Origin: Fodinibius salipaludis
Lineage (GTDB): Bacteria; Bacteroidota; Rhodothermia; Balneolales; Balneolaceae
Assembly (NCBI RefSeq): GCF_002287075.1
Contig: NZ_NSKE01000005.1
Coordinates: forward strand, 1-64,000
Direction of reading: 5' to 3'
Length of the DNA: 64,000 nt
Part shown: positions 11,146 through 15,542 of the stretch, one piece after another
How positions within the stretch are numbered: the stretch's first letter is position 1
Layout: every line of letters starts with the position of its first letter
Program-made: the position numbers and the translations under genes
The notes under the pieces: generated by a model
The model's database searches: none
The model's input: the letters and a program-made list of their open reading frames with translations, nothing else
Told to the model about the DNA's origin: nothing

Positions 11146-12495
11146 ATGTTTGCTTATTTAAAGTCAGAAAAATATAACCTTCGCAAAGAAGCCGGTATTA
11201 CCCTCAAGATCGGGCTGCCGGTAATTATGGCTCAACTGCTGCAAATGTCGATGAACTTTGTAGATACAGTGATGGCGGGGAATTTATCTGCACAAGATCT
11301 GGCAGCGGTAGCTGTGGGAGGTGCGGTTTTCAATCCCTTTATGATGCTGGCGGCCGGCACCCTGATGGCTCTGACGCCCGTTGTAGCACAACACGTAGGG
11401 GGACGTAATTTTGAGGAAATTGGCGTTAACGTGCGACAAGGCCTCTGGCTCTCCCTCTTTCTTGCCATCCCCATTTTTTTTCTGATCCGTAACCTCGAAT
11501 TCGTAATGTATTTTCTGGACGTTACGCCAGAAATTATTCCGCTCTCACAGGGCTACTTGGATGCTATCTCCTGGGGTACTTTTGGAGTTTGCGGATATAT
11601 GGCTCTTCGTTTTTTCAACGAAGGCATGTCAGCAACACGTCCGGCCATGTATTTTGCTCTGATTGGTGTCTTTGTCAATATTGGAGCCAACTATGTACTA
11701 ATGTATGGCAAGCTGGGATTCCCCGAACTCGGAGCCGTCGGATGCGGATACGCCTCTTCAATTGTGGGATTTGTAATGTTTTTGGGGATGCTCCTTTTTA
11801 CTATGAAACATAAACCCTACGACCGATTTGAAATATTTTCAAAATGGAGGCTTCCGGAGTGGAAATACCTAAAAGAACTCCTGCACGTTGGCGTTCCTAT
11901 CGGGCTCAGCTCCACCATGGAAGTTACCATGTTCGCCTTGGTAAGCCTTTTCATGGGATCCCTAAGCGCTGTTGCCGTGGCCGGTCACCAGGTTGCGATC
12001 AACTTTTCGGCCATGACCTTTATGGTACCTTTCGGACTTTCAACTGCCATTACTACGCGCGTTGGGAATGCCATTGGTAAGGGATCTATGGTAGAAGCCC
12101 GTAAACGAGGCTATCTTGGTATTATTATGGCCACCTTTTTTATGAGTATTACTGCCATTATCATGTATCTCTTCCCGGAACTCATTACAAGCATGTATAC
12201 TCAGGATGCTGAAGTACAAAAAGTAGCGGTAAGCCTGTTGTATATGGCTGCCATTTTCCAGATTTCAGATGGATTACAGGTCAGCGGGTATGGTGCACTC
12301 CGAGGACTCAAAGACACTACCGTGCCGATGGCCGTTAATTTTGTCGCCTACTGGATGGTGGGCCTACCGCTCGGTTATTATTTAGGAATCATTCGCAATA
12401 TTGGCCCGCAGGGGCTCTGGATGGGACTTATTGCCGGTCTTACGATTGCAGCCATCTTGCATAACATTCGATTCTATCTGCTCACCAAAAAATAA
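11146..12495 (+). CDS. MATE family multidrug efflux transporter
   Basis: The 449-residue protein has about twelve membrane segments arranged as two homologous halves. The N-terminal half opens with GLPVIMAQLLQMSMNFVDTVMAG and continues with PFMMLAAGTLMALTPVVAQHVG; the second half repeats the pattern with GVPIGLSSTMEVTMFALVS and the VAGHQVAIN motif typical of NorM-type MATE exporters. It would expel cationic compounds using Na+ or H+. It sits directly upstream of the polyketide operon on the same strand, separated by 83 nt, so it could export a product of that operon, though this is only positional. Confidence 0.93.
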   Translation: MFAYLKSEKYNLRKEAGITLKIGLPVIMAQLLQMSMNFVDTVMAGNLSAQDLAAVAVGGAVFNPFMMLAAGTLMALTPVVAQHVGGRNFEEIGVNVRQGLWLSLFLAIPIFFLIRNLEFVMYFLDVTPEIIPLSQGYLDAISWGTFGVCGYMALRFFNEGMSATRPAMYFALIGVFVNIGANYVLMYGKLGFPELGAVGCGYASSIVGFVMFLGMLLFTMKHKPYDRFEIFSKWRLPEWKYLKELLHVGVPIGLSSTMEVTMFALVSLFMGSLSAVAVAGHQVAINFSAMTFMVPFGLSTAITTRVGNAIGKGSMVEARKRGYLGIIMATFFMSITAIIMYLFPELITSMYTQDAEVQKVAVSLLYMAAIFQISDGLQVSGYGALRGLKDTTVPMAVNFVAYWMVGLPLGYYLGIIRNIGPQGLWMGLIAGLTIAAILHNIRFYLLTKK

Positions 12496-12532
12496 CCTAC
12501 AATTAGGAATTCGGAATTTTTACCACAAAATT

Positions 12533-12563
12533 AGGGTATTAATAGAGTACATACTCTAACCCT
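12533..12563. promoter_or_regulatory. Imperfect palindrome in front of the polyketide operon
   Basis: AGGGT (12533-12537) and AGAGTA (12544-12549) are mirrored by TACTCT (12552-12557) and ACCCT (12559-12563). The inner arms are separated by only CA. It ends 15 nt before the first start codon of the type III PKS operon, so it could be an operator or a leader hairpin. No regulator gene is adjacent. Confidence 0.4.
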
Positions 12564-12578
12564 TTAATTTAATGGTAG

Positions 12579-13688
12579 ATGGCAGCTTACATCCAAAATA
12601 TTTCCACGGTGGTCCCGGAGCGCTCCTATGATCAGTCTTTTTTGCGCGACCGCATGAAAGAATACATCAGCGATAAAGAAATAACACAGCGAATCATCCA
12701 TCGTATTTACTCAAAATCAGGTATAAACAAGCGCCATACCGTTATTCCTGATTTTAACACCAACGGTGATCCTCGATTTTTCTTTCAGGAAGATGGCACT
12801 CTGAGCGTACCCTCTACCGGAACCCGCAACGAACTTTACACCCAAAAAGCCAAAGAGCTTTTTGTAGAAACAGCTCGGCAAACCATCGACGAGAATCAAT
12901 CGGTAGATCGTGAACACATCACGCACGTTATTACGGTATCCTGTACGGGATTTTTTGCTCCGGAACCCGGGTTCGAAATCATCCAACAACTGGGATTATC
13001 ACCGTCTACCCAACGTTTTCACCTTGGCTTTATGGGATGTTTTGCCGCCTTCCCCGCTATGAAAATGGCCAAAGCTTTCTGTGAGTCTCAACCTGATGCA
13101 AACGTACTCATTGTTTGCCTCGAACTCTGCTCTATTCACCTGCAACCTTCAGAAGTTACCGATAATTTAATTTCAGCATCCGTATTTGCCGACGGCGCTG
13201 CCGGTGTCATAATCAGTAAAGACAAACCCACAAAAACTAACAGTTTTGAACTGACACAGTTTGCCACATCCATCGCTCAAGAAAGTGAAAAAGATATGGC
13301 CTGGACAATTGGCGATACCGGCTTTGATATGGTATTATCTACCTACGTACCGGATATTATCGAGGCAAATCTCGATCAATCTATCCAGCCGCTGTTCACG
13401 GATTATCAGCTCACTGCTGATGATATCAATCACTGGGCACTCCATCCCGGCGGACGTGCAATTCTTGATAAAGTACAACAAAGCTTTGGGCTTTCAGAAG
13501 AGCAAATATCACCATCGCGAAAAGTATTGGCTGACTACGGAAACATGAGCAGCGCAACAATCCTGTTCGTACTGAAAGAATTATTAAGTCGGCCGGCTTC
13601 CAAAAAACAAGAAGCTGTTCTGGCGATGGCTTTTGGCCCGGGCTTAACTATCGAAAGCGGACTACTTCAAAAAAATCAGGTGAGCTGA
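12579..13688 (+). CDS. Type III polyketide synthase (chalcone synthase-like)
   Basis: This 369-residue thiolase-fold enzyme has the full type III PKS triad: C154 in GFMGCFAAFPA, H289 in WALHPGG and N322 in DYGNMSS. These synthases condense malonyl-CoA units onto an acyl-CoA starter, making alkylresorcinols or alkylpyrones in bacteria. Length and the Cys-containing VSCTGFFAPEPG segment fit the chalcone/stilbene synthase group rather than FabH. Its stop overlaps the methyltransferase start (TGATG), and a FAD monooxygenase follows. That order recalls srsABC of Streptomyces griseus, which makes phenolic lipids and quinones; the product here is inferred. Confidence 0.93.
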   Translation: MAAYIQNISTVVPERSYDQSFLRDRMKEYISDKEITQRIIHRIYSKSGINKRHTVIPDFNTNGDPRFFFQEDGTLSVPSTGTRNELYTQKAKELFVETARQTIDENQSVDREHITHVITVSCTGFFAPEPGFEIIQQLGLSPSTQRFHLGFMGCFAAFPAMKMAKAFCESQPDANVLIVCLELCSIHLQPSEVTDNLISASVFADGAAGVIISKDKPTKTNSFELTQFATSIAQESEKDMAWTIGDTGFDMVLSTYVPDIIEANLDQSIQPLFTDYQLTADDINHWALHPGGRAILDKVQQSFGLSEEQISPSRKVLADYGNMSSATILFVLKELLSRPASKKQEAVLAMAFGPGLTIESGLLQKNQVS

Positions 13689-14383
13689 TGCCTCTGTCCC
13701 TATCTCAACGAGATACCGACAGTAAAGAGCGCATGGATGATCCCCATTGCAATGTCGTAAAACTACAAAATACCTATCGGCAGTTTAGCCGGATCAATTC
13801 ATTGATATCGCGTTGGCGGCATATTTATGAGCAATTTATTCGTCCACATCTTGATCAATATTCGCAATTCACCTTTCTGGATATCGGCTTTGGCGGAGGG
13901 GATATCCCTATAGAGTTAGCCGAGTGGTTGAAAAAAGACGGAATAAACTTCAAAATTACAGCTATCGATCCCGATCCCCGGGCTATAGAATTTGTACAAA
14001 CCCTTGAACTGTCCACGAACATAGAATTCTTGCAATGCGGACTCTCAGAATTAAATCCAGATGCACAACAGTTCGACTTCGTTCTATCCAACCATTTGAT
14101 CCATCATCTGGATGAACAGAAACTTTTATCCATACTGCCGCAGGCAAAAAAGTTGTGCTCAAAATCGATCCTCTTTAATGATCTGCGCAGAAGCGATTGG
14201 GGCTACCTACTTTTCAACACCTTTTCTCGTCCCTTTTTTCGGAATTCTTTCATCACCGAGGATGGACTTACCTCCATTAAGCGAAGCTATACCCAAAAAG
14301 AATTGCAATCGATTATCCCGCCGGATTGGAATGTGCAGAACCTCTTTCCTTTTCGACTATTGATGACTTACAGACATGAATGA
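13688..14383 (+). CDS. Class I SAM-dependent methyltransferase
   Basis: The 231-residue protein has a Rossmann-type methyltransferase core. Motif I is FLDIGFGGGDIP (about 63-74), the acidic motif II is AIDPDPRA, and the motif IV region is FDFVLSNHLIHHL. It starts within the stop of the type III PKS gene (TGATG) and overlaps the next gene by 8 nt, so it must be translated with both. It probably O- or C-methylates the polyketide. Unlike SrsB of Streptomyces it has no membrane helices and is not of the isoprenylcysteine methyltransferase type. Confidence 0.9.
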   Translation: MPLSLSQRDTDSKERMDDPHCNVVKLQNTYRQFSRINSLISRWRHIYEQFIRPHLDQYSQFTFLDIGFGGGDIPIELAEWLKKDGINFKITAIDPDPRAIEFVQTLELSTNIEFLQCGLSELNPDAQQFDFVLSNHLIHHLDEQKLLSILPQAKKLCSKSILFNDLRRSDWGYLLFNTFSRPFFRNSFITEDGLTSIKRSYTQKELQSIIPPDWNVQNLFPFRLLMTYRHE

Positions 14384-15542
14384 GGTTTCTGACACATATC
14401 AAGTAACCATTGTTGGTGGAGGCCCGGTAGGACTCTACCTGGGCTTATGTCTCGAGCAAGCAGGCATTTCGTATATCATCCTTGAAAAAAGATCGGCACC
14501 TCGTCCCGGCTCTCGGTCACTGGGCATTCATCCGGTCTCGCTGGAGTTGTTTGAGAAGTTGAATATTGTCAGCAATTTTATTCGGGAGGGAGTAAAAATC
14601 CAAACGGGACACGCTTTTGTAAATACCCAGAAAATGGGCGCACTTTCTTTCGAGCATTGTCCGAAACCGTACAACTTTATTTTAGCGCTCCCACAACACC
14701 GAACCGAATCATTGCTCGAACAAGCCTTGACGAAAAGAAATCCCAATGCTCTGCTCCGTAATGCCGAGGTCAGCACCATCACAAAACATAGCGAACATGT
14801 TGAGGTTACGTTTGACCACAACGGAAAAAGTCATACGCTCCAATCAGAATACTTGGTGGGATGTGACGGTAAAAATAGCCTGGTTCGCAGGCAAAGCGAA
14901 ATCTCGTTTAAGGGCCATCACTATCCCGACACCTATATTATGGGCGATTTCACAGATAACACGCATTTTGATTCGGATGCAGCCATTTTTCTATGCGATG
15001 AGGGGCTTATTGAATCTTTCCCACTGCCCAATAACCGCCGCCGATGGGTGGTTAAAACAGCTGATTATATTGATTATGTTTCAAAAGAACAGCTGACATC
15101 AAGGGTTTTTAATAGAATTAGTCATTCATTAAGCAATACGGATCATACCATGCTTAGCAGCTTCGGCGTACAAAAATTGATAGCTCATCCTATAGTTAAA
15201 AATCGCACTATTTTAGTCGGTGATGCTGCTCATGTCATAAGCCCTATTGGCGGACAAGGTATGAATTTGGGCTGGCTTGATGCCCGTGATCTCGCAGATA
15301 CATTCCCCCAGGTATTGGGCAATACCTTCCAGAAAGATATGATCCTGAACCAGTATCAAAAAAGAAGAGAACATGCCGCTAACATTGCTATCCGAAGAGC
15401 AGAAATGAACATGAAATTAGGTAGAAAAACTGCCACTCAATTTGTTCGCAAACCATTACTTGCCCTAATGCTAAAACCCCCAATATCTCAACTCATGGCA
15501 AATATTTTTACAATGCGCGGTATTGAGCAGTGGCCATTCTAA
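14376..15542 (+). CDS. FAD-dependent aromatic monooxygenase
   Basis: This 388-residue flavoprotein belongs to the PHBH/UbiH group. The dinucleotide-binding GGGPVG lies at 14-19 with the acidic strand end LEKR. The middle region has a DG motif (GCDGKNSLVRR), and the second FAD motif VGDAAHVISPIGGQGMNLG lies near 286-304. It is the last gene of the PKS operon and overlaps the methyltransferase by 8 nt. In the comparable srs operon such an enzyme hydroxylates the resorcinol ring to give a quinone; the same step is likely here but not proven. Confidence 0.9.
   Translation: MNEVSDTYQVTIVGGGPVGLYLGLCLEQAGISYIILEKRSAPRPGSRSLGIHPVSLELFEKLNIVSNFIREGVKIQTGHAFVNTQKMGALSFEHCPKPYNFILALPQHRTESLLEQALTKRNPNALLRNAEVSTITKHSEHVEVTFDHNGKSHTLQSEYLVGCDGKNSLVRRQSEISFKGHHYPDTYIMGDFTDNTHFDSDAAIFLCDEGLIESFPLPNNRRRWVVKTADYIDYVSKEQLTSRVFNRISHSLSNTDHTMLSSFGVQKLIAHPIVKNRTILVGDAAHVISPIGGQGMNLGWLDARDLADTFPQVLGNTFQKDMILNQYQKRREHAANIAIRRAEMNMKLGRKTATQFVRKPLLALMLKPPISQLMANIFTMRGIEQWPF

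Follow-up and report, generated by a model that had tools for sequence, protein, structure and literature searches.

A conserved operon of a type III polyketide synthase, a methyltransferase and a group A-type monooxygenase in Balneolales, putatively for a modified phenolic lipid

Based on a 64,000-nucleotide stretch of the Fodinibius salipaludis genome (contig NZ_NSKE01000005.1, positions 1 to 64,000; here named the window), we describe a cassette in which a type III polyketide synthase (PKS) is followed by an S-adenosylmethionine (SAM)-dependent methyltransferase and a flavin adenine dinucleotide (FAD) monooxygenase. The cassette is a real operon, strongly conserved and far beyond chance, since 98 of the 114 PKS-bearing genomes of the order Balneolales have the three genes side by side and since the same gene order is found in other phyla. 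We consider it probable, although well short of certain, that this is a co-translated operon for a methylated and hydroxylated fatty phenol. The genes with their domains and catalytic motifs, their overlaps and their conservation are direct observations, and the chemistry is proposed from them and from related systems.

All three genes lie on the + strand, in the order PKS, methyltransferase, FAD monooxygenase:

12579..13688, + strand: type III PKS, open reading frame (ORF) of 369 amino acids, Pfam Chal_sti_synt_N and Chal_sti_synt_C, triad C154/H289/N322
13688..14383, + strand: class I SAM-dependent methyltransferase, ORF of 231 amino acids, Pfam Methyltransf_25/11, NF004851/PRK06202
14376..15542, + strand: FAD monooxygenase, by its motifs of group A (hydroxybenzoate-hydroxylase type), ORF of 388 amino acids, FAD_binding_3
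13686..13690, + strand: TGATG stop-start junction of PKS and methyltransferase, one base shared, from the sequence
14376..14383, + strand: 8-nucleotide overlap of methyltransferase and monooxygenase, from the sequence

The Pfam domains of all three proteins score above cut-off, and the ORF list and the sequence agree on the TGATG junction and the 8-nucleotide overlap by which an earlier sequence-only reading had linked the genes. The PKS ORF opens with ATG at 12579, the stretch from 12533 adding 46 bases of leader, and this PKS is the sole type III PKS match in its own genome.

Conservation of the gene order across Balneolales, which that reading had set as a check, was borne out in a sample of 146 genomes including that of F. 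salipaludis. A PKS match was obtained in 126 of them, and after two were dropped (G127 and G138, E about 7e-4), 124 were kept. The PKS is present in 82/87 genomes of the family, in 114/123 of the order (family included) and in 10/23 other genomes of the class; by coordinates, PKS, methyltransferase and FAD gene are adjacent in 78/82, 98/114 and 3/10 of these, respectively. Neighbourhoods were compared in regions from 34 genomes (35 loci, 27 from the order and 8 from the class outside it). The usual block in the family consists of a dehydrogenase, a histidine kinase, a multidrug and toxic compound extrusion (MATE) transporter, the cassette, a GAF kinase and aconitase, followed by rplM where the stretch reaches that far, with insertions or missing parts in some loci. 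Genome G093 of the sample has, besides the full cassette in L047, a second PKS copy in L048 (42% identical) with no methyltransferase or FAD match nearby; in G065 the FAD match (C12:311348-312484) lies off the PKS/methyltransferase contig and has internal stops; and G087, a 100% complete order member that alone represents its family in the sample, gave no type III PKS match.

Relatives were also found in the rest of the phylum and beyond it. In the phylum outside the class, a type III PKS matches at E 1e-30 or better, with 28-44% identity, in 79 of about 222 genomes, where the 79 were counted by hand and the denominator assumes that the unlisted genomes all come from outside the class. Six loci of the phylum picked by their NF004851 match (L098, L099, L100, L104, L105 and L107) have a PKS beside it in 6/6 cases, and two Pontibacter loci (L194, L196) likewise have a PKS beside a PRK06202-type methyltransferase. 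The gene order of the window is the same in Deinococcus radiodurans, D. radiophilus and D. psychrotolerans and, by annotation, in Deinococcus sp. QL22. Deinococcus proteins are identical to those of the window at 47-50% for the PKS, 37-45% for the methyltransferase and 39-40% for the FAD enzyme. The one-base PKS/methyltransferase overlap recurs in Deinococcus sp. QL22 and not in the other three, whereas the methyltransferase/FAD overlap is of 8 nucleotides in D. radiodurans, D. psychrotolerans and Deinococcus sp. QL22 and of 7 in D. radiophilus; all the Deinococcus cassettes examined are on plasmid records. The Deinococcus and actinobacterial cassettes (mostly Micrococcales) share the order and the hydroxylase motif of the window, with no MATE match beside them, and no characterised member was found among them in the literature searched.

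Among the best 80 named loci of the matches listed, to which all counts of named loci refer, the three genes lie within 4 kb in 61, and in 46/51 of the actinobacterial ones. Sets that diverge further were found in Microbacterium, Roseomonas, Methylobacterium, Sphingobium, Psychrobacter and Paenibacillus, as well as in the planctomycete Paludisphaera. A Sphingomonas PKS (L116) stands with an isoprenylcysteine-type methyltransferase, so that Alphaproteobacteria hold both methyltransferase kinds. The plasmid survey inspected 13 of the 40 records listed out of 164 with a PKS match, the 56 from Streptomyces and the 45 from Rhizobium lying outside it. Two loci deserve separate mention: in Kocuria coralli (L163, 8885-10060) the third gene encodes a nitroreductase-family protein in place of the FAD enzyme, and on a Microbacterium plasmid (L093), where no PKS is annotated, the matches to all three genes are each broken into two pieces, a copy that is perhaps decayed or frameshifted.

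In a PKS tree rooted on loci resembling the srs operon of Streptomyces, a single group (support 0.88) unites 35 Balneolales-labelled leaves with 3 from Deinococcus and 44 from actinobacteria, and every member carries the group A pattern in its flavoenzyme. The tree cannot place the srs-like loci on either side because they served as its root. As to its labels, L161 is wrongly given as Actinomycetota, and L118 and L120 are labelled Balneolales while their titles say only Bacteroidetes. Distances in the three gene trees correlate with Spearman coefficients of 0.873, 0.891 and 0.899, against permutation maxima of 0.167, 0.14 and 0.231 (102/147 loci kept, 45 dropped; near-duplicates L108/L125 and L033/L141, each pair from one contig), which fits a unit passed on for the most part as a whole.

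The PKS has the N and C Chal_sti_synt domains and the Cys-His-Asn triad of type III PKSs. C154, H289 and N322, which the sequence-only reading had called intact, are unchanged in an alignment of 12 PKSs and in another of 40; in the former, the window PKS is 35-53% identical to PKSs of similar sets outside the family and 27% identical to an srsABC-like PKS. We compared its AlphaFold2 model (predicted local distance difference test, pLDDT, 93.3) with known structures. The closest folds are PKS18 and Ectocarpus PKS1 (Z about 49), and pyrone and chalcone synthases follow at Z 47-48, within about 2 Z of the top, so that the fold leaves the starter unsettled. The top PDB sequence match is likewise the Ectocarpus PKS (4b0n). 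An acyl tunnel is described for PKS18 (PMC6274091).

The methyltransferase is a soluble Rossmann enzyme, as first proposed and unlike SrsB, according to Pfam and to NF004851, whose curated cut-off of 243 bits it passes with 267. Its AlphaFold2 model (pLDDT 95.5) aligned by VIA-align with NovO (Z 18.8), CouO (Z 18.4) and plantazolicin methyltransferases (17.6-18.6). NovO and CouO are aromatic-ring C-methyltransferases, level with the plantazolicin enzymes, the best entries lying within one Z unit, and because of this tie, ring C-methylation by the modelled enzyme is possible but unproven. Foldseek with the same model gave generic class I methyltransferases, and a PDB profile search gave these only (best E 1.9e-9). 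H136, H139 and H140 of the window protein resemble the key residues of CouO in spacing only, and such His motifs are frequent in class I methyltransferases. In CouO the residues are His117, His120 and Arg121 (PMC5289526). We also scored ten methyltransferases from divergent loci, and in 10/10 the best NCBIfam model was NF004851: D. radiodurans reached 334.5 bits (the sole pass of the ten), Paludisphaera 232.4 and the others 107.6-160.2. The window and Paludisphaera proteins, the latter a stand-in for HidA and Gimesia Mtr, align with an hhalign probability of 99.7 (E 3e-27). Enzymes of this type also have a PKS neighbour in Deinococcus and actinobacteria, in other Bacteroidota, and in some proteobacteria and one planctomycete. 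The PRK06202-type soluble methyltransferase is thus a recurrent PKS partner and not a one-off, and the earlier view of it as an exception within an otherwise srs-type operon is not supported.

The FAD monooxygenase scores 196 bits against FAD_binding_3 and contains GGGPVG, CDGKNSLVR and GDAAHVISPIGGQGMN. The GxGxxG, DG and GD motifs, which we take to be the marks of group A flavoprotein aromatic hydroxylases, are thus all present, and by these motifs the enzyme is assigned to that type. A scan of the matched pieces of the flavoenzymes found the group A GD pattern in 91/102 cassettes, with L041 a near miss, and the DG pattern also in 91/102; the matched pieces of L089, L100, L105 and L112 showed no GD motif. 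GD motifs of the Paludisphaera, srs-like and most Bacteroidota flavoenzymes differ from that of the window, the srs-like one fitting the DG pattern.

By analogy with characterised systems, the most likely product is an alkylresorcinol of the membrane that carries added methyl and hydroxyl groups and is perhaps oxidised to a quinone. The PKS would load a long-chain acyl thioester, extend it with malonyl units and cyclise it to a 5-alkylresorcinol; the methyltransferase would add a methyl group to a ring carbon or a phenolic oxygen; and the monooxygenase, a group A hydroxylase fitting this step well, would add a ring hydroxyl to give a hydroquinone, oxidisable to an alkylbenzoquinone that would reside in the membrane. 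We infer the chain length of the substrate, ring closure to a resorcinol rather than a pyrone, the site of methylation, the formation of a quinone and the role. Some neighbours in other loci suggest lipid handling: YceI-like genes, whose proteins bind isoprenoid lipids, are found in L128, L181 and L155, and MMPL genes in L122 and L126. Together with the putative lipid/isoprenoid-binding protein of one planctomycetal operon (PMC10896814), they indicate a lipid product. Moreover, three planctomycetal PKSs, from related operons or a variant, are reported to yield resorcinols with pentadecyl and/or heptadecyl chains in C. glutamicum, and the mtr and fdo genes of Gimesia maris to add one methyl, probably on carbon (PMC10896814). 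A phenolic lipid or quinone is therefore plausible by comparison with these and the actinobacterial operons (PMC10896814, PMC9927152).

Several observations weigh against this interpretation. Shared species history supplies part of the tree correlation. At the thresholds used, 16 of the 114 PKS-bearing order genomes lack three adjacent genes (among the few of these inspected, L047 and L049 have a diverged FAD gene, 31-34%, in place), and outside the order only 3 of the 10 PKS-bearing class genomes, out of 23, have the full set; four class loci picked by a weak NF004851 match (L101, L102, L103, L106) have no PKS match beside it. Among the named loci, no FAD gene was detected in 4, no methyltransferase in 5 (Sinomonas, Prosthecobacter and Desulfuromonas included) and neither within 4 kb in 10, several of these ten being Verrucomicrobia and one (L126) having an upstream flavoprotein by Pfam. 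No product was found for any member with the group A hydroxylase type, and for Gimesia maris the role of the flavoenzyme is reported as still to be clarified, methylation alone having been observed (PMC10896814). At the level of structure, the methyltransferase fold does not tell C- from O- or N-methylation, and no ArsB or ArsC entry is among the matches listed, leaving the ArsB Trp281/ArsC Gly284 cyclisation switch unmapped, with W242 and W286 of the window PKS not assignable to it.

Upstream of the cassette lies one further gene:

11146..12495, + strand: MATE transporter (Pfam MatE), a Balneolales neighbour judged to be outside the cassette

It ends 83 bases before the PKS start, so its position just upstream, already noted from the sequence, holds. 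Membership in a wider cassette was rejected, as the gene was found near the PKS only in Balneolales loci. Between the two genes, a leader stretch (12515-12555) resembling GGAATTTTTACC-C-AAATTAGGGTAT is kept in several genomes of the same genus and is a possible promoter or operator candidate. The PKS leader of L012, of the same genus, is identical to that of Fodinibius sediminis DSM 21194 (L117). A palindromic operator was considered and dropped: the best palindrome of the window (7-bp arms) was equalled or exceeded in 8% of shuffles, and in the leaders of 16 relatives (two identical pairs) this figure ran from 6% to 99%.

The MATE gene raises the question of whether the cassette makes a diffusible specialised metabolite, exported by this pump for competition. 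It lies less than 500 bases upstream of the PKS in 21/27 order loci, and efflux genes flank other type III PKS sets, in Methylobacterium and Sphingobium; however, it is so placed in 0/8 class loci outside the order, was found in only 6 of the best 80 named loci and is kilobases away in L036 and L038, and near-universal retention would be unusual for a competition metabolite. We regard export for competition as distinctly unlikely. Alkyl alpha-pyrones made by the PKS and decorated by the other two enzymes are also unlikely, though somewhat easier to imagine: PKS18, a pyrone maker, is the top fold match, and Azotobacter ArsC makes pyrones while being 71% identical to the resorcinol-making ArsB (PMC6274091), but a group A ring hydroxylase would suit a phenol better than a pyrone, and resorcinols are what the planctomycetal PKSs produce that are paired with a related methyltransferase (PMC10896814).

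The same C15/C17 alkylresorcinols of characterised PKSs from related operons (PMC10896814), and the lipid-handling neighbours in other phyla, argue against a short-starter aromatic of phloroglucinol or chalcone-like type, which we hold improbable even though the best PDB sequence match is the Ectocarpus enzyme (4b0n), a brown-alga phloroglucinol synthase structure being treated in PMC6274091. Finally, genuine orthology with srsABC/pkqABC, the methyltransferase having been exchanged, would account for the order and the enzyme classes. We compared the window with the srsABC-like locus of Streptomyces sp. NBC_01237 (L114), found by its isoprenylcysteine-type methyltransferase and used as a stand-in for S. 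griseus and M. smegmatis. With only 27% identity for the PKS, 23% over 151 columns for the flavoenzyme and a different GD motif, orthology was rejected and is very improbable.

The methylated and hydroxylated alkylresorcinol thus being preferred, its role may be considered. The conserved address and near-universal retention in the order suggest core physiology rather than an occasional antibiotic, the retention being mostly at one address in the family, and this near-universal presence is more notable than the gene list. The genome contains menA, a menaquinone gene, so that menaquinone is presumably made too and a quinone from the cassette would be an additional one. It is conceivable, although doubtful, that the cassette yields an undescribed alkylbenzoquinone which accompanies menaquinone in the membrane as a second, constitutive quinone; such a compound would belong to the core of Balneolales and would also occur in Deinococcus and Micrococcales. 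If so, polyketide quinones would be far more widespread than the actinobacterial srs and pkq systems, with a second enzyme set having evolved. In actinobacteria, polyketide quinones are proposed as alternate electron carriers (PMC9927152), and the planctomycetal alkylresorcinols are not known to have a role (PMC10896814); the presence of the cassette in Deinococcus radiodurans and Arthrobacter offers tractable hosts in which to study the role of bacterial phenolic lipids and quinones.

No description of the Balneolales or Deinococcus cassette was found in the literature searched, which leaves out most subscription journals, and in a search for type III PKS in Balneolaceae only a salt-mine metagenome study matched both terms. 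Related operons are in print for Planctomycetota and cyanobacteria (PMC10896814; PMC8086630). Acetobacteraceae type III PKS clusters all contain a methyltransferase and a FAD monooxygenase, and their metabolite is reported as not known (PMC8776678); in Roseomonas, the PKS is 37% identical to ours, the methyltransferase scores 136 bits against NF004851, below cut-off, and no group A GD motif was found in the flavoenzyme. The planctomycetal mtr-fdo-t3pks and cyanobacterial hidABC operons share with the window a type III PKS, a flavin oxidoreductase and, as judged from Paludisphaera, probably a PRK06202-related methyltransferase; the product of hidABC is hierridin B, a hydroxylated and O-methylated compound (PMC10896814). 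Their order is methyltransferase-oxidoreductase-PKS, whereas that of the window is PKS-methyltransferase-FAD. The Paludisphaera PKS is 36% identical to the window PKS, and its flavoenzyme, as stand-in for HidB/Fdo, only 18%, with GDATGYVEPFTGEGM in place of GDAAHVISPIGGQGMN, so the window enzyme differs from the HidB/Fdo type.

The order of the window is instead that of srsABC of Streptomyces griseus and pkqABC of Mycobacterium smegmatis, three-gene operons in which alkylresorcinols are turned into quinones (PMC9927152, PMC6669644), the resulting alkyl quinones being proposed electron carriers (PMC9927152). SrsB is an isoprenylcysteine carboxyl methyltransferase (PMC6669644), a membrane type that the Methyltransf_25/11 and NF004851 protein of the window does not represent, and the flavoenzyme differs from the SrsC type, as judged from the L114 protein. 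Because both tailoring enzymes differ, the operon is like srsABC in layout and not in tailoring; of the srsABC-like set first proposed, the order and enzyme classes stand, and identity with the srs operon does not. In summary, judged by its sequences, the cassette varies the known PKS-methyltransferase-flavoenzyme theme by its group A-type hydroxylase.

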